Below are positions 35,831 to 42,228 of a DNA stretch of 64,000 nt, in pieces. Under the pieces are notes generated by a model, which was given only the letters and a program-made list of their open reading frames with translations, had not been told where the DNA came from and ran no database searches. Positions within the stretch are counted from its first letter, which is position 1; each line of letters starts with the position of its first letter. Source of the DNA: Zoogloea oleivorans. GTDB lineage: Bacteria > Pseudomonadota > Gammaproteobacteria > Burkholderiales > Rhodocyclaceae. The DNA lies in the NCBI RefSeq assembly GCF_008107625.1, contig NZ_SDKK01000016.1, positions 1 to 64,000 of the forward strand, given 5' to 3'. The position numbers and the translations under genes were made by a program.

Positions 35831-36061
35831 TTACTTGCGGCGCAGGAAAAAATCGTAGGCGTTATCCGGTAATTCGTTGTGGGCAACCAGCTCATTGCCG
35901 GTCTGTCGGGCGAAGGCCGCAAAGTCCTTCACCGATCCCGGGTCCGTCGCGAGGACATGAAGCACCTGGCCAGCCTGCATTTCTGCCAGCGCCTTCTTGG
36001 CGCGCAGAATAGGCAGTGGGCAGTTCAGGCCGCGGGCATCCACTTCCTTGTCAAAATCCAT
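35831..36061 (-). CDS. TusA/SirA-family sulfur-carrier-like protein
   Basis: A 75-residue TusA-like protein with the signature LNCPLPILRAKKAL; the cysteine of CPxP carries sulfur as a persulfide in the family. The fold's later part (DPGSVKDFAAFARQTGNEL) is complete. Single TusA-like genes act in tRNA thiolation or in sulfur oxidation/trafficking; which applies here cannot be told. Start ATG 36061; the frame is open ten residues further up without homology. Confidence 0.93.
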   Translation of the reverse strand: MDFDKEVDARGLNCPLPILRAKKALAEMQAGQVLHVLATDPGSVKDFAAFARQTGNELVAHNELPDNAYDFFLRRK

Positions 36062-36300
36062 TGTGTGACTCCATCTTCGAGAGGCGATCAAGGCCGGATT
36101 CTAACGCGACACGCGATTTTGGCCGAGGCCGGGCAAACGCACTTCGACGCAGTGCAAAAAAGACCGTGATTCTGTGAAATAATGACCATAGAAAAACCAT
36201 GTCATACCCAGATCGATACCCTTAGCGGCAGTATCGGCGCGCCAGAGCTTGTCTGGCAAGGCTTTCCCCAACCCCAACAATTCCTCCAAGGTAGACCAAC

Positions 36301-36666
36301 ATGCGCTCGAACATGCTCCAGACGGTTCTCAATGACCTGAACGGCACCTCCGCAGACATCGAAGCTTCAGCCATCATCTCCTCCGACGGCCTGATGATGG
36401 CCGCACTGCTCCCCAACACCGTGGACGAAGACCGGGTGGGTGCCATGAGTGCCGCCATGCTGTCCCTCGGTGACCGGACTGCCCGGGAACTGGCCCGCGG
36501 CGGCCTGGAACAGGTTCTGATCAAGGGCGAAAAGGGCTATGTGCTGATGGTCCAGGCTGGCGCCGATGCCGTGCTCACCGTGATGGCCAAGCCGAATGCC
36601 AAGCTGGGCCTGGTCTTCCTCGATGTCCGCCGGGCGGCAGACGCCATCGGCCGAATCCTCGGATGA
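36301..36666 (+). CDS. Roadblock/LC7 domain protein
   Basis: A 121-residue single-domain roadblock/LC7 protein. Typical segments are DIEASAIISSDGLMMAALLP, the helix DRVGAMSAAMLSLGDRTARELARGGLEQV and the final strand/helix LGLVFLDVRRAADAIGRIL. In MglB and the conservon CvnB proteins this fold dimerises and acts on a small GTPase. It opens a run of seven genes that ends in a Ras-like GTPase and a second roadblock-like protein; the GTPase is its probable partner. Confidence 0.9.
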   Translation: MRSNMLQTVLNDLNGTSADIEASAIISSDGLMMAALLPNTVDEDRVGAMSAAMLSLGDRTARELARGGLEQVLIKGEKGYVLMVQAGADAVLTVMAKPNAKLGLVFLDVRRAADAIGRILG

Positions 36667-36682
36667 GCGGACTGTGCAAGAC

Positions 36683-37153
36683 ATGAATCTCGACCACATT
36701 TCGGGAGATCCAGTCGAGCATGTGCTGACCCATGCCGACGGCACCCGTCGCCGCGTTTATGTGACATCAATCGAAAAGCCCTACCCGCACGGCAAGCTGA
36801 TCGTCTCGCGGACCGATACCGCCGGGATCATCACCCAGTGCAACCAGTCCTTCGTCGACATGTCCGGCTACGCCAGGGAAGAGTTGATTGGCCAGCCCCA
36901 CAGTCTCCTGCGTCACCCCGGGATGCCCGCCGCAGCCTTCCGTGACCTGTGGGACACCGTCAAGGCCGGGCATCAGTGGCACGGTTATGTAAAAAATCTG
37001 CGCAAGGATGGCGGGCACTACTGGGTCCATGCCGCAGTGGTTCCCAACATCCGCAACGGAGAAATAGTCGGTTATACCTCGGTACGGCGCGAGCCCTCCC
37101 GGGAGCATGTCGCAGCCGCCGAATTGCAGTACCGGGAGATGAACGGACAATGA
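36683..37153 (+). CDS. Aer-like PAS domain sensor protein
   Basis: A 156-residue protein consisting of little more than one PAS domain. The segment TDTAGIITQCNQSFVDMSGY, then the LLRHPGMPAAAFRDLW motif and GHQWHGYVKNLRKDGGHYWV are as in Aer, where the pocket binds FAD and senses redox state. No transducer, kinase or output domain is attached, so it must act through a partner. Start ATG 36683, with a GTG at 36674 as alternative. Its stop overlaps the next start (ATGA). Confidence 0.88.
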   Translation: MNLDHISGDPVEHVLTHADGTRRRVYVTSIEKPYPHGKLIVSRTDTAGIITQCNQSFVDMSGYAREELIGQPHSLLRHPGMPAAAFRDLWDTVKAGHQWHGYVKNLRKDGGHYWVHAAVVPNIRNGEIVGYTSVRREPSREHVAAAELQYREMNGQ

Positions 37154-37896
37154 GTTTCAACTTCACCGTAAGTCCCAGCTTTCCCAACGAGCGCATCTCG
37201 GACTGGTACATCTTCAACACCTGGCTGCAACGCTCCCTGTCCCTGCCCATTCACCTGGAGCTCTACGACAATTTCGGCGCCCAGCGGGCCGCCATTGCGG
37301 CTGGCAAAGTGGACATCATCCATGCCAACCCCTTCGACGCGTCCCTGCTGGTGCGGGAAAAAGGTTTCCGGGCCATCGCCCGGCCGGAAGGTCCGCCGGA
37401 CGAGATGGTCATCGTCAGCGCCGCCGAAAGCCCCGCCCAAGGCATTCCCGATCTTCAGCCCGGAACACGCCTGGCGTGCACCGACGACCCCTGCGTCAAC
37501 ACCGTCGGACGCATCCTGCTCGAACCGGCCAATCTCGACACCGGCAACACCGTCGAGCTCCGCCGCGAAACCTACATCCAGGTTGCCAAGGCCATCCTGC
37601 GCGGCGAAGCCGATATCGGCTTTTTCCCGGTAGCCGCCTTCAACGCGCTGTCGTCCCTTGTCCGGCGAGACATTCGGGTACTGGTCACCAGCGACACACA
37701 GGTGATCCAGCACGTTTTCCTGGTGGGCCCAGCCCTTCACGACCGGGTCGACGAGATGACCCATCTCCTCCTCACGATGCACGAGACGGACAAGGGCCGC
37801 AGCATGCTCGAAGCCCTCGGAGCCAGTCGCTGGCAAAACGTCCAGCAAGAGGATGTAGAGTTCATGATCGACATTATTTCCACGTTAACCCAGTGA
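37150..37896 (+). CDS. PhnD-like periplasmic-binding-protein fold without signal peptide
   Basis: A 248-residue protein related to the phosphate/phosphonate substrate-binding PhnD family (FNFTVSPSFPNERISDWYIF; AAIAAGKVDIIHANPFDASLLV; GEADIGFFPVAAFNAL). Unlike transporter binding proteins it begins directly with the fold: no signal peptide or lipobox, and the start is fixed by the ATGA overlap with the PAS gene. It is therefore predicted to be cytoplasmic, probably as a ligand-sensing component rather than an ABC transporter part. No permease or ATPase gene is near. Confidence 0.82.
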   Translation: MSFNFTVSPSFPNERISDWYIFNTWLQRSLSLPIHLELYDNFGAQRAAIAAGKVDIIHANPFDASLLVREKGFRAIARPEGPPDEMVIVSAAESPAQGIPDLQPGTRLACTDDPCVNTVGRILLEPANLDTGNTVELRRETYIQVAKAILRGEADIGFFPVAAFNALSSLVRRDIRVLVTSDTQVIQHVFLVGPALHDRVDEMTHLLLTMHETDKGRSMLEALGASRWQNVQQEDVEFMIDIISTLTQ

Positions 37897-38369
37897 TCCT
37901 CTTCATCGCCGACAAGGGCCGGCCGGAACGTATCCGTCATCCTGCACCACCAGCGGTCTTCGGACTGCCGGTGCGCACACTGGGAATTGCCTCCCACTGG
38001 TGCACCCCGGCAACGGGGACACTGCTGGCCGCCGAAATCGGACGCAAACCGACCAACCTGCACCTGCATGTACAACGCATCTCCCTGTGGCGCAGCCTCG
38101 GCGACGAAGCGCGGGCGGCTGCCGCGGTGATTGACCTGTGGATCGTCCTCGGGCCCCACGGCAGCGGCTTGCGTACCCACATGCTGCACGATCACTATGC
38201 AGCCCTGGAAGAGCAGGATCTGGGCATTTACCTGAGCGAGCGTCTGGATGACGGCATCCGCCGTCACGATCCACGGATTGCCCTTCCCGACGTCGTACTC
38301 GCCAGACCGGTCGACGGTGACATATGCTTCCTGAGGGTCGCTACCAGTCCTCATGAAGGCATCCGCTGA
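37893..38369 (+). CDS. Hypothetical protein of the GTPase/roadblock cluster
   Basis: A 158-residue soluble protein with no family I recognise. It starts at a GTG overlapping the previous stop (GTGA). The sequence alternates strands and helices (VILFIADKGRPERIRH; LGIASHWCTPATGTLLAAEIG; VIDLWIVLGPHGSGLRTHML; DGDICFLRV), suggesting a small alpha/beta fold. Its conserved-looking glycine/histidine stretch at about residues 80-100 could be functional. The overlap on both sides implies stoichiometric expression with the neighbours. Confidence 0.75.
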   Translation: MILFIADKGRPERIRHPAPPAVFGLPVRTLGIASHWCTPATGTLLAAEIGRKPTNLHLHVQRISLWRSLGDEARAAAAVIDLWIVLGPHGSGLRTHMLHDHYAALEEQDLGIYLSERLDDGIRRHDPRIALPDVVLARPVDGDICFLRVATSPHEGIR

Positions 38370-39597
38370 ACGCCCCCCCTCCCGGCATCACCAGCTTACC
38401 GCCCACCGTGAATCCGTCATGAGCCGCCACACCACCCTCCCCGGCCCGCACCTGACCGCCCTCTACCTGCTCCACGCAGGCAGCATGGATGTCCGGCTGA
38501 TCAGCCTTTCCGTGGAACGCCACTGGAAACATGCAGTGCGCCTGGTGCCGACGCTGGATGAAGCCCGGGTCGTCCTGGTCGACTGTGATCGTCCGGGCGT
38601 TGAAGCGGCCTTCGAGCAACTGGGCCCTTATCCAAGCGCCGGCATCGTGTGCTACGCCTTTCACCCGAAGGACCATGCCCTGCGCTTTCCGAACCGGCTC
38701 ATCCTGGGCAAGCCACTCAATCTGGATGCCCTGCCCGGCATCCTTGCCAAGGCCGCCAACGACACCGCGGCCATCAAGGCTACCGTCACAGCACGCCGCC
38801 AGGTGCCAGCACCAGTACCAACGCCCCCCATGGCAGCCGTGGAAACCCCCAGCTCCCTGGGCCACGGACTGCACATGGATGAAGAGCGTGACCTGTGCGG
38901 CGCCATGGACGACATTCCCCTCACCCCAGGCACGCCTCTCAGCGAAAAACTCTTTTTCGCCCCCGACCAATACCTGATCGGCCACCTCTCCCGGGCTGTC
39001 GAACAGGCCGTCGCCTCAGGTCGCCCTCATGTCATTTCCGGCCTGCCGCACCTCATCGGAGTCCAGCCACAGCCATTGCCGGTGTGTGTCACGGCATTTC
39101 GCGGCAACCAGTTGCGGCCCTTTTCCATGACCCAGTTGCCGCACGCCACGGCACGCATCGTCAGCGCCCTGATCTTCAGTGAATCCGTAGGTACCGAGAC
39201 AGTTTACGCGGCCGAGGATTTTCTCTGGAACATCGCCGCCTGGGCCGCCCGTGGCCGCCTGCCCGTGGGCACCGATCCCTACCAGAGGGTACGCCTGAAA
39301 GCCTGGCCCAACTTTACCCAGGCCTTCCTTTCACCCCACGCACTGCGCATAGCAGCCTTGTGGACACGCACCTGGGCCAGCCCTGTGGAGATCGCCACGC
39401 AGCTGGCCATCCCCCATCGTTATGTGTTTTCGGTATTCTCGTCAGCCCACTTCTCCGGGCTGCTGGACCGGAACGCACCGACCGTTGCGCCCATCGCGGT
39501 CATACCCGTTGCCGCACACCCCTCCCCTTCTCCCAAACAAGAACAACGGCCATCGATTCTGTCCCGAATTCTCAGAAAGCTCCTCAATGCGGTCTGA
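38353..39597 (+). CDS. Pseudo-receiver protein with C-terminal helical (wHTH-like) region
   Basis: A 414-residue soluble protein. Residues about 30-145 look like a response-regulator receiver fold (VVLVDCD at strand 3, ILGKPLNLDALPGIL with the strand-5 lysine-proline), but the usual acidic pair and phosphorylation site context are altered. The middle is variable and Pro-rich. The region IAALWTRTWASPVEIATQLAIPHRYVFSVFSSAHFSGLLD (split here: about residues 335-375) has the look of a winged helix, as in the DUF742 proteins of conservons. The start at 38353 overlaps the previous gene by 17 bp; ATG 38419 is an alternative. The assignment is structural intuition, not homology. Confidence 0.68.
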   Translation: MKASAERPPSRHHQLTAHRESVMSRHTTLPGPHLTALYLLHAGSMDVRLISLSVERHWKHAVRLVPTLDEARVVLVDCDRPGVEAAFEQLGPYPSAGIVCYAFHPKDHALRFPNRLILGKPLNLDALPGILAKAANDTAAIKATVTARRQVPAPVPTPPMAAVETPSSLGHGLHMDEERDLCGAMDDIPLTPGTPLSEKLFFAPDQYLIGHLSRAVEQAVASGRPHVISGLPHLIGVQPQPLPVCVTAFRGNQLRPFSMTQLPHATARIVSALIFSESVGTETVYAAEDFLWNIAAWAARGRLPVGTDPYQRVRLKAWPNFTQAFLSPHALRIAALWTRTWASPVEIATQLAIPHRYVFSVFSSAHFSGLLDRNAPTVAPIAVIPVAAHPSPSPKQEQRPSILSRILRKLLNAV

Positions 39598-40147
39598 ACG
39601 CGCCCGCCACAACAAGATCATTTTTTCCGGCACCGTCGGTGCTGGCAAAAGCACGGCCATCGCAGCCCTCAGCGACATCCCGCCCGTCTGCACCGAAGCC
39701 GTCGCCAGCGACGAGACTGCTGCACTGAAGAAGACCACCACGGTCGCCATGGACTACGGCCTGCTGAACCTGCCTGACGGCGAAAAAGTGATGCTCTACG
39801 GCACCCCCGGGCAGGAACGTTTCAGCTTCATGTGGGAAATCCTTTCGGAAGGCGGCATCGGCCTCGTCCTGCTGATCAACAACGCCAACGTCGACCCGCT
39901 CAAGGATCTCGAAAACTATCTCGCCGCGTTCAAGAAGTTCATCGCCAGCACGGCGGTGACCATCGGCGTAACCCACATGGACCGCGCCCAGGAACCCGGG
40001 CTCGATGCCTACCGGAAAAAGCTCGCCGAACTCGGCCACGATCCGCTTCCTGCCGTTTTCCGGGCCGACGCACGCAATCGCGAAGACGTGGCCACGCTAG
40101 TCAAGGCACTCCTCTACACCCTCAACCCCGGATTGGTCGATGCTTGA
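39587..40147 (+). CDS. Small Ras/MglA-like GTPase (COG2229/CvnD type)
   Basis: A 186-residue P-loop GTPase. G1 is GTVGAGKST, the switch II/G3 region is YGTPGQERF (Gly in place of the usual Asp of DxxGQ), and G4 is THMD in place of NKxD. These variants are normal for the COG2229 GTPases that pair with roadblock proteins in actinobacterial conservons and for MglA relatives. It is encoded between the pseudo-receiver protein and a second roadblock-like protein, overlapping both, and is the likely switch of this cluster. Confidence 0.88.
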   Translation: MRSERARHNKIIFSGTVGAGKSTAIAALSDIPPVCTEAVASDETAALKKTTTVAMDYGLLNLPDGEKVMLYGTPGQERFSFMWEILSEGGIGLVLLINNANVDPLKDLENYLAAFKKFIASTAVTIGVTHMDRAQEPGLDAYRKKLAELGHDPLPAVFRADARNREDVATLVKALLYTLNPGLVDA

Positions 40148-40772
40148 GATTATTCCCGGCTCCCACCTGACCGTAACGCCCTACGGCGCATGGCAGGCCG
40201 TAACCCGTGCGGATCAGACGCCCCAGCGGCAAGTTCTGCTCGGCGTCCTGCGCGAAGCCATAAGCCCCCTGCTGAGCCTTGAGTCGATCCGCACATGGAC
40301 CGGCGAAAGCGACCCGGAGGCCGCGCTCGAACATCTGCTCAGGCTGCAGGAAGACGCCTGCCTCGAAGCCTGGCCACGGCCGCGCATGGCCCCCATTGGC
40401 ACCCTCGAGGCCACGCTGCCCGAACTGCTCGCTGCCCTCAGCGACAGCGGACAGGCCGTGCTGGCCGATCACATGGGCTTCTGCCTGGCGATTGCCGGCT
40501 ATCCGACCGACACCGGCGAAGCGCTGGCCGCCCTCGGCGCAGACATTCTGTCAGTGGCCGAACGTCAGTCTGCAGCGCTCTCCAAACTGGGCGACCACCT
40601 GCTCGACGGCTGGGGCAATGTGGATGCCGCCGGCGTCAGCGGATTGAGTTTCTGGCCGATGCACGTCGGGCGCACCCGCCTGGCCCTCACCGTCAGCGGA
40701 CGCCCGCGCTTCAACCAGCGCGCCTTCGCCGACCTGGTGTGGGCCCTGTACGTGCGCTACGGCCAGATCTGA
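40140..40772 (+). CDS. Roadblock-like protein with N-terminal helical region
   Basis: A 210-residue protein. The last 130 residues (AVLADHMGFCLAIAGYPTD; ALGADILSVAERQ; FWPMHVGRTRLALTV; FNQRAFADLVWALYVRYG) follow the roadblock/LC7 pattern of strand-helix-strand-strand-helix, though with weak sequence similarity. The first 80 residues are helical. It overlaps the GTPase gene by eight bases. I infer it is the second roadblock partner of the GTPase; this needs structural support. Confidence 0.65.
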   Translation: MLEIIPGSHLTVTPYGAWQAVTRADQTPQRQVLLGVLREAISPLLSLESIRTWTGESDPEAALEHLLRLQEDACLEAWPRPRMAPIGTLEATLPELLAALSDSGQAVLADHMGFCLAIAGYPTDTGEALAALGADILSVAERQSAALSKLGDHLLDGWGNVDAAGVSGLSFWPMHVGRTRLALTVSGRPRFNQRAFADLVWALYVRYGQI

Positions 40773-40788: not shown

Positions 40789-42228
40789 TCAACGCTGTTC
40801 GCGGCGCTCGCGCAACTGTTCGGCCAGCAGGGCACTCACCTCGCGCAGGCGCGAATCCACCGCCGAGTGCTCGAAAAAGTCCCCGTCGCCCGCCGCCTGG
40901 GCAAGGCTGAGCTGCTGGGCTGACGCCGCGTAGTTACCCTGAATGGCGTACACCTCGGCGAGCGAACGATGCTGGGCCAGGCGCTTGCCCAGCGCCGCCT
41001 CGGCCCGCGCCCGCAACTCCCACAGGGTTGCATTGCCCGGCGTCGTCAGGACTTCTGCCTTCGCCACCGTCAAGGCATCGCCGGGACGCCCCGCATCGAC
41101 CAGCGCACCCAGTTCGCCGTAAATCAGTCGCCGGGACTGGGGAAAGCGGACGCGCGCCTGCGCAAACACCTTTGCCGCACCGGCCGGATCGTCGTGGGCC
41201 AGGCGCAGGTCGCCCTCCAGCCCGTCGATCATCGCCGAAACCACCCGCTGCTTGCGCAAGTCGGCCATGGCCCGATCCGCATCGGCAAGACGCTTGGTGC
41301 TGAGATAGGCCCGCACCAACCCGTATTGCGCCGCCACCGTGGGGGGGGTTGCCCGTGCCGCCCTTTCAAACTCCTCGACAACCTCCCGGGAGGCCATGCG
41401 GCCCACCTTCAGCTTGGCCCGCACCAGCTGGAAATCGAGGGAGTCCGGCACCTGCCGGTAAGGCATGCTGGCGACCCGGCTCTCCATTTCAGTGATCCGC
41501 TCACCGGTCAGCGGGTGGGTGCGCAGATAGGCCGGCGCATTGTTTTCGTAGAGCCGGCTGTTCTTCTGCAGACGCTCGAAAAAGCTCGGCATGCCGCGCA
41601 CGTCGAAATCCGCCGCCGCGAGGTTCTGTACCCCGAGCCGATCGGCTTCGTTCTCGAAATCCCGTGAATAGGCCAGTTGCGAACTCAAGCCTGCCGCCTG
41701 ACCGGTCATGATGGCCGCCTGACTGACCTGCGAACTCGACTTGGCCGCCAGAATCGCCACCAGCAGCGAAGCCAGCATCAGCACGCCGAACTGCCCCTGC
41801 TTGCCGACCATCCGGGCAATGTGACGCTGGGTGACGTGGGCGATTTCGTGGGACATCACCCCGGCCAGTTCCGACTCGCCCTGGGCGGCCAGGATCAGCC
41901 CGGTATGTACCCCGATCTTGCCACCCGGCATCGCAAAGGCGTTGAGCGACGGATCATTGACACCGAAAAATTCGAAGGGCAAGCCCGCCCCCGGCCCCGC
42001 CGCCACCAGGCGATCGCCGAGAATGTTCAGGTAATCCTCAACCTCCGCATCCTGCAGGTAGGCCGGATCTTTCCAGCGGATGTCACGCATGATCTGCGCG
42101 CCAATGCGCTGCTCGGCCAGCGGCGAAAGGTCACTCGAAGCACTATCGCCCAGGTCGGGCAGGCTCTGGGAAAAGCTGCGCGGCACCAGGGCCACGCACA
42201 GCAGGGCGGCGATCAGACGTTTTTTCAC
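40789..42228 (-). CDS. bepA: M48-family periplasmic metalloprotease with TPR tail (BepA-like)
   Basis: A 479-residue exported protease. A signal peptide ([18 protein letters not shown]...) precedes an M48 domain with the zinc motif HEIAH in [12 protein letters not shown] (about residue 130) and the downstream glutamate ligand in ENEADRLG. The C-terminal 180 residues are TPR-like helices. BepA assists LptD maturation and degrades misassembled outer-membrane proteins. Convergent with the roadblock cluster, divergent from moaC. Confidence 0.92.

Follow-up and report, generated by a model that had tools for sequence, protein, structure and literature searches.

A seven-gene signalling operon around a Ras-like switch protein in Zoogloea oleivorans

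Seven close-set genes on the forward (+) strand of contig NZ_SDKK01000016.1 of Zoogloea oleivorans (assembly GCF_008107625.1; 5.68 megabases in 107 contigs) are the subject of this work. They lie at 36,301-40,772 of a stretch of 64,000 nucleotides, called the window below, and were lettered A to G in their order on the strand, as seen in Table 1. An earlier reading of the DNA alone, without database searches (the sequence-only reading), had proposed that these genes are co-directional and closely linked, and that they encode a roadblock protein, an Aer-like PAS protein, a cytoplasmic PhnD-like fold, a protein of no known type, a pseudo-receiver protein, a Ras/MglA-like GTPase and a second roadblock-like protein. 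We found that the cluster is a real seven-gene signalling operon around a Ras-like switch protein, and the named families were confirmed, with the second roadblock recognised through its relatives.

The operon and its Group 3 Mgl core

The genes are separated by 49 nucleotides at most. A and B are 16 nucleotides apart, B/C and C/D each overlap by 4, E/F overlap by 11 and F/G by 8. D and E are separated by a gap of 49 if E starts at 38,419, or overlap by 17 if it starts at the ATG at 38,353. The 38,419 start is more likely because several relatives begin at the equivalent position, with the start codons of relatives chosen by script. Pfam labels four of the seven proteins, namely A (Robl_LC7), B (PAS), C (Phosphonate-bd) and F (ATP_bind_1). 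NCBIfam gave no match for D, E and G, and matches below its cut-off for A, C and F. A scan for promoters and terminators had no match on the + strand and was uninformative.

On the three features that we checked, the assignment of the operon as a Group 3 MglA (mgl) locus is well supported. A 2014 survey described the Group 3 MglA of beta- and gamma-Proteobacteria as having a core of an E-type protein, a GTPase and one or two roadblocks; the GTPase has a G4 motif without the Lys of [NT]KxD and a G5 motif DAR, and the neighbour protein has a receiver-like N-terminus, a winged helix-turn-helix (wHTH)-like C-terminus and a variable linker (PMC4316618; here and below, earlier work is cited for those portions of each paper that were consulted). 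F has the P-loop GTVGAGKS, the G3 motif YGTPGQERF, the G4 motif THMD, which has no Lys, and the G5 motif DAR. Most of these positions are invariant or near-invariant in the alignment of F, with D161 and R163 invariant. E has a receiver fold according to Foldseek, a variable linker and C-terminal helices that, in the structure model, are consistent with a wHTH. The roadblocks are represented by A directly and by G through its relatives. In addition, F is 56% identical to the F of Snodgrassella alvi, and Snodgrassella mglA was published as Group 3 (PMC11112851).

The E-F-G/A core, found in the same lineages, was therefore already known from the 2014 survey, and the claim of the sequence-only reading that this set had not been described does not hold for it. 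The claim does hold for the sensory extension. In contrast to the Group 3 systems in the consulted portions of that survey, the operon also contains D, the Aer-type PAS protein B and the cytoplasmic PhnD-fold protein C, and in the open-access literature we recognised no account of an mgl locus that includes B, C or D. As far as we searched, three things are new: a sensory extension that is conserved but optional (B and C, with a protoglobin elsewhere), protein D and the split into D-E-F-G and A-B-C.

The cluster had also been called conservon-like, and this was not upheld. Conservons (Cvn, Group 2 MglA) likewise have a roadblock and an MglA-family GTPase in one operon, and some have cytoplasmic accessory sensor-like proteins (CvnF, GAF; PMC13343842). 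However, none of the seven proteins contains a histidine kinase domain in Pfam or NCBIfam, neither D nor E matches DUF742, the G4 and G5 motifs of the GTPase are in Group 3 style, and the host belongs to another phylum. DUF742, presumably the family of CvnC, was also missing from the families listed for E relatives (24) and D relatives (25 of 41). The description of a GTPase/roadblock cluster with unusual sensory parts stands, but the idea that these parts simply replaced the kinase does not, as E retains a receiver with D79, K120 and D77. Since Asp79 and Lys120 are invariant and Asp77 is near-invariant, an unlinked kinase could still feed into the system. The Myxococcus xanthus MglA/MglB/RomR module (Group 1) is similar in pairing a GTPase with a roadblock and with a receiver-domain partner, RomR. 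It differs in its MglA group, and PAS, PhnD or protoglobin partners were not seen there in the literature consulted.

Table 1. Genes and features of the operon and its flanks (positions in the window)
Feature	Position	Strand	Size and evidence
A: roadblock/LC7 protein (MglB-like)	36,301-36,666	+	121 aa; Robl_LC7 58.8 bits, 4.7e-16 (Pfam)
B: stand-alone Aer-type PAS with N-terminal extension, no output domain	36,683-37,153	+	156 aa
C: PhnD-fold solute-binding-like protein without signal peptide	37,150-37,896	+	248 aa; Phosphonate-bd 130.5 bits, 8.7e-38
D: all-helical protein, short form of its family	37,893-38,369	+	158 aa; GTG start
E: receiver-containing protein	38,419-39,597, or from ATG 38,353	+	392 aa, or 414 aa
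E, receiver-like domain	38,455-38,796	+	residues 35-148 of the 414-aa reading; model, Foldseek
E, C-terminal basic amphipathic helix	39,556-39,588	+	H402-412 in the model
F: MglA-type small GTPase, Group 3	39,587-40,147	+	186 aa; ATP_bind_1 46.1 bits; small_GTP weak
F, G4 motif THMD	39,971-39,982	+
F, G5 motif DAR	40,067-40,075	+
G: second roadblock-like protein	40,140-40,772	+	210 aa; Robl_LC7 through relatives
tusA-like gene, upstream flank	35,831-36,091	-	named from translation
bepA-like M48 protease gene, downstream flank	40,789-42,228	-	named from translation

Conservation and modular gene content

Conservation within the genus and order was examined with F as the query against 60 genomes: the host's own, 22 congeners, 13 of other genera in the family and 24 of other families. 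F matched 21 of the 60, which were the host, 19 of the 22 congeners (not G010, G012 and G014) and one of the 24 genomes of other families, and none of the 13 from the family's other genera. The profile of E matched 25 of 300 genomes of the order, with up to 6 candidates scored per genome. These included the host and four genomes of other genera in the family, two of them weakly.

Among the 19 orthologous loci of congeners, 13 have the complete set of seven in the same order (G is cut by a contig end in L039), and in 12 of these valS-tusA and bepA-moaC are visible on either side. The remaining six run off contig ends; one of these, L050, has no bepA match between G and moaC. By tblastn, identity across Zoogloea is 81-94% for F (78% for the cut piece in L050), 70-93% for G (58% for the cut piece in L039), 74-89% for C (63% and 71% for the cut pieces in L045 and L044), 74-82% for B, 60-80% for D and 54-78% for E. 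Of the seven proteins, A is the best conserved, at 93-100% across 14 Zoogloea loci, and exceeds valS (86-93% at full length; 84 and 95% for cut pieces). Its mean column identity is 79% among 28 beta/gamma sequences and it is the sole PF03259 match in the host genome at E<=0.001. This conservation is as expected of a hub.

A paralogous cassette was found at 12 loci, with an F that is 43-59% identical (tblastn), E in 11, and G and D in 5 each. No match to A, B or C was found in these 12 loci, two of which are short contigs, and D-E-F-G is thus a block that is separable from A-B-C. The cassette adjoins an operon for resistance-nodulation-division (RND)-type efflux and/or groES/groEL in five of the six loci viewed, L055 being the exception, with these neighbours named by eye. 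The host genome also has a second E paralogue on contig 29 (L172, 6321-7544), a 407-aa open frame near groES/groEL and an RND-type efflux gene, where the genome search flagged one TGA within a longer match. Profiles detected no F, G or D in the surrounding 14 kb; congeners pair E and F at such places.

Beyond the genus, profiles built from the congener loci were applied to the best 80 of at least 462 relatives of F, chosen by F similarity (the named set). All seven families share a strand in 50 of the 80, and Zoogloea accounts for 5 of the 50. The order D-E-F-G-A-B-C, seen for instance in Methylotuvimicrobium buryatense 5G (L138), is the commoner one (39 of the 50, 4 of them near contig ends), as opposed to the A-B-C-D-E-F-G order of the window (6, one near a contig end), and the other 5 are variants. 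One locus (L100, 1446-8555) has a complete A-B-C-D-E-F-G followed in tandem by a second A-E-F set. We also used an even sample of the class, 274 genomes, of which 47 have F at E<=1e-20, giving 46 loci besides the window. The two sets overlap, as at least L177 shares its contig with a locus of the named set. Of the 46 loci, 36 have E next to F and 18 contain each of E, F, G and A. The commonest pattern is E-F-A without G (13), all seven families occur in 8, and one locus at a contig end has F-G-A-B-C. The genes are thus conserved together in many other genomes, as the sequence-only reading had required of its proposal. Flanking genes were considered as a hint to function and set aside, as the largest recurring group, receiver/kinase-like open reading frames named by eye, covers just 16 of 71 loci.

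Sensor-like proteins, roadblocks and the receiver/helical pair

The best solved relative of B is the PAS domain of E. coli Aer (2.3e-37), with 3ewk, a 'Sensor protein' that we take to be MmoS, at 1.1e-28. G48 of B lies at the position of Aer residue 28. The contacts of Aer with flavin adenine dinucleotide (FAD) are H53, R57, W70, N85 and R115 (PMC9668731), and in our alignment all five are present in B, as H73, R77, W90, N105 and R135. B is predicted from these residues to be an FAD redox sensor.

The solved chains nearest to C are PtxB and a phosphonate-binding (PhnD-type) protein, then AioX-type proteins and ArrX. The STSS region of PtxB, which is its phosphonate/phosphite-binding Ser/Thr loop, pairs with another loop of the C profile in the alignment. 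No signal peptide was found in C or in its 28 aligned homologues, whose starts were chosen by script, and the N-terminus of C begins near the first conserved strand of this alignment. C also has no strongly hydrophobic stretch (maximum KD19 1.16). We therefore rejected a role as a periplasmic transporter protein, for which Pfam also finds no transporter part among the seven proteins. C is instead predicted to be a cytoplasmic ligand sensor. A second C-type protein is encoded on contig 38 of the host genome (L171, 6372-7139; 275 bits) and has no roadblock nearby. It belongs to a 'CPHDTAKN' subfamily, members of which adjoin A in Derxia (L101) and in L149, both without B.

The two sensor-like genes keep close to A. 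C follows B in 54 of 54 named loci and A precedes B in 53 of the 54. In the class sample, 9 of the 46 loci have both B and C, none has just one of them, and A is always there with them. A has a protoglobin gene as its immediate neighbour in 6 of the 80 named loci and in 4 of the 46 class-sample loci (L183, L184, L187 and L195), and the four proteins tested were all confirmed as protoglobins by Pfam. A globin fused to a roadblock domain was described in Methylacidiphilum (HGbRL, PMC4476040). This is a heme globin coupled to Roadblock/LC7, as expected if protoglobins act on A; it differs in being a single fused protein of another globin class, and the seven-gene operon is not described in the consulted part of that paper. 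In the actinobacterial system, accessory proteins accompany kinases that have no extracytoplasmic sensory domain, and the cytoplasmic accessory sensor CvnF8 stimulates the kinase CvnA8 (PMC13343842). The protoglobin beside A, the HGbRL fusion and the CvnF8-CvnA8 pair together suggest roadblock A as the plug-in point for sensors, and B, C and the protoglobin may all act on A. A gene of 143-186 aa stands directly before A in five named loci (L109, L111, L144, L150 and L157) and perhaps encodes another sensor; it has no Pfam match worth naming.

G itself has no Robl_LC7 match at E<=0.5, but 30 of 38 members of its family do at that threshold, with a best value of 1.5e-5. G adjoins F in 19 of the 46 class-sample loci. 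A and G could act on F as a GTPase-activating protein (GAP) or an exchange factor.

The model of E (mean predicted local distance difference test score, pLDDT, 84.8) consists of a receiver-like domain, a middle region, a helical region consistent with a winged helix, a Pro-rich linker and a C-terminal helix. Most of the 50 Foldseek matches listed are receiver domains, the best having E 6.9e-4 and being the one at E<=0.001. The linker is variable in the alignment of E, and the motif of the basic amphipathic C-terminal helix is present in 44 of 45 homologues, by a pattern written after viewing the sequences. The hydrophobic moment of this helix in the window is reached by 0.28% of shuffles. An unusually long homologue of E (L154, 5006-7960) lies in an open frame of 985 aa, more than double the typical size; neither Pfam nor NCBIfam matched it at E<=0.05.

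D is modelled with helices only (pLDDT 85.9). Foldseek gave no significant match, though tetratricopeptide repeat (TPR) proteins are frequent among its top matches. TPR_14 matches 22 of 56 members of the D family at E<=0.5 and does not match D of the window; in the 9 members checked, the better TPR matches fall after residue 140-170 and not in the region aligned with D. We therefore rejected D as a TPR protein, as these matches fall in a C-terminal extension that it does not have, and we keep the description of a helical protein related to longer proteins with TPR-like ends. The M. xanthus module has a TPR effector for pili, SgmX. Homology of D to FimV or SgmX is not claimed, as the matches are weak (0.02 and 0.013) and come from a single larger homologue (L166). 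In six E-F-G-A loci, from Snodgrassella, Eikenella, Vogesella and others (L159, L161, L164, L165, L166 and L169), a larger protein is encoded directly upstream of E, and its C-terminal part is matched by the long D-family profile at 38-86 bits. Five of the six open with a hydrophobic stretch, which we read as a membrane anchor; L164 is cut by a contig end.

Proposed mechanism, output and competing explanations

From the gene content, families, FAD-site residues, synteny and modularity observed above, we propose an extended Group 3 Mgl system in which plug-in cytoplasmic sensors act through the roadblocks on F, and F acts through E and D on an output that is likely type IV pili. We consider this proposal somewhat better than an even bet. 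F, the MglA-type GTPase, would be the switch; of the two roadblocks, G would be linked to F and A to the sensors. B, putatively FAD-bound, would report the redox or respiratory state of the cell, and C, kept in the cytoplasm, would report a small molecule; in some relatives, the protoglobin beside A would be a further sensor. The sensors would alter the action of A, together with G, on F as GAP or exchange factor, and the GTP/GDP state of F would then track redox state and metabolites, with no dedicated kinase encoded by the operon. E, with its receiver, winged-helix-like region and basic amphipathic tail, and the helical D would carry the output as effectors, most likely through type IV pili to surface attachment or flocculation. 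A broader version, in which this is a widespread and previously unrecognised form of kinase-free signalling, with exchangeable FAD-PAS (redox), PhnD-fold (small-molecule) and protoglobin (gas or oxygen) inputs directly gating a roadblock hub and, through the Ras-like GTPase and the receiver/helical pair, pili, is more speculative and we lean against it.

Pili are a plausible output, and the evidence for motility or surface attachment, as the sequence-only reading had suggested, is indirect. PilM is over the cut-off in 45 of 47 F-positive and 157 of 227 F-negative genomes of the class sample (Fisher p=2.9e-5), in a table read by eye from the search results and with a test that ignores phylogeny. 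Without the borderline genome G593 the values are 44 of 47 and 158 of 227 (p=2e-4). One locus (L187, 8144-12851, genome G512) has D-E-F-G-A-protoglobin directly followed by pilB-pilC-pilD. In Snodgrassella, mutation of an orphan mglB changes soft-agar spreading and gut colonisation, and three mglB genes were all reported as beneficial in a transposon screen (PMC11112851).

A number of observations weigh against the proposal. The PilM association is uncorrected for phylogeny, and just one of the 46 class-sample loci is directly beside pilB-C-D. A tblastn search for pilB, pilC and pilD in loci L091 onward found, besides L187, pilB/pilC-like pairs in just L151 and L174, and these were weaker. The neighbours in the window, valS, tusA, bepA and moaC, say nothing about pili, and the mutated Snodgrassella mglB is an orphan that lies about 1 megabase from the operon (PMC11112851). 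B and C are missing in 37 of the 46 F-positive class-sample loci, and the sensors are therefore optional. One locus (L176, 4820-10064, genome G479) reads D-E-G-C-A-B-C with no F between E and G, and the class search at E<=1e-20 found no F elsewhere in its genome. A sequences with B/C (60) and without (42) gave no clear specificity positions; only position 32 passed, and it was uninformative. Finally, an effector role for D is a guess, as D is without the TPR-like portion that its longer relatives have.

One possible explanation other than pili is a transcriptional output, with E as a response-regulator-like DNA-binding protein controlled by F and the roadblocks, so that the operon regulates genes. 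The 2014 survey predicted a receiver and a wHTH with Phyre2 and suggested transcriptional control (PMC4316618), and both the receiver fold and the winged-helix-like region of our E model agree with this. However, the region presumed to form the recognition helix contains a conserved RYVF, which is aromatic and not basic, and the conserved C-terminal helix is more like a membrane or docking element. DNA binding could still occur with either, yet we find this explanation doubtful.

It is also possible, and in our view unlikely, that an unlinked histidine kinase phosphorylates the receiver of E and thereby controls F, with B and C modulating that kinase and not A. The invariant D79, K120 and P121 and near-invariant D77 among 45 homologues would fit a phosphorelay, but the acidic pair that canonical receivers carry is not evident in E. 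The accessory sensor CvnF8 does act on a kinase, CvnA8 (PMC13343842). However, the seven proteins have no kinase domain, and the receiver/kinase-like neighbours at 16 of 71 loci vary in position and strand.

Another explanation concerns the process that is controlled, which could be exopolysaccharide or floc formation, efflux or some other envelope process, with the pilus association due to shared ancestry. Zoogloea is known for its flocs in activated sludge, and the E-F paralogues without A, B and C are mostly beside RND-type efflux operons and/or groES/groEL. PilM is also over the cut-off in 202 of the 274 class genomes anyway. Nevertheless, the F-positive genomes exceed this background, and the Snodgrassella phenotype (PMC11112851) and the biology of MglA, in the literature consulted, point to pili; we rate this explanation as quite unlikely. 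It is improbable that B and C are passengers that only share a transcript with the other genes and have functions of their own, unconnected with the GTPase. They are missing from most class-sample loci and the host has a C-type paralogue without a roadblock, but they accompany A, with two gene orders represented, in Zoogloea, Methylococcales, Thiothrix, Halothiobacillus and others, and copies of C adjoin A without B in L101 and L149.

The proposed extended Group 3 Mgl system matters because the inputs of Group 3 systems are not explained in the portions of the literature consulted, while F is present in 47 of the 274 class genomes. With the seven-gene form, candidates for these inputs can be named: a flavin sensor of the Aer type, a binding protein located in the cytoplasm and, in some other species, a protoglobin. 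The question of what a bacterial Ras-like GTPase responds to thereby becomes directly testable, for example in Zoogloea, Methylomonas and Methylotuvimicrobium. Were pili or attachment the output, the operon would link respiratory state to floc and biofilm formation in wastewater and methane-oxidising bacteria.

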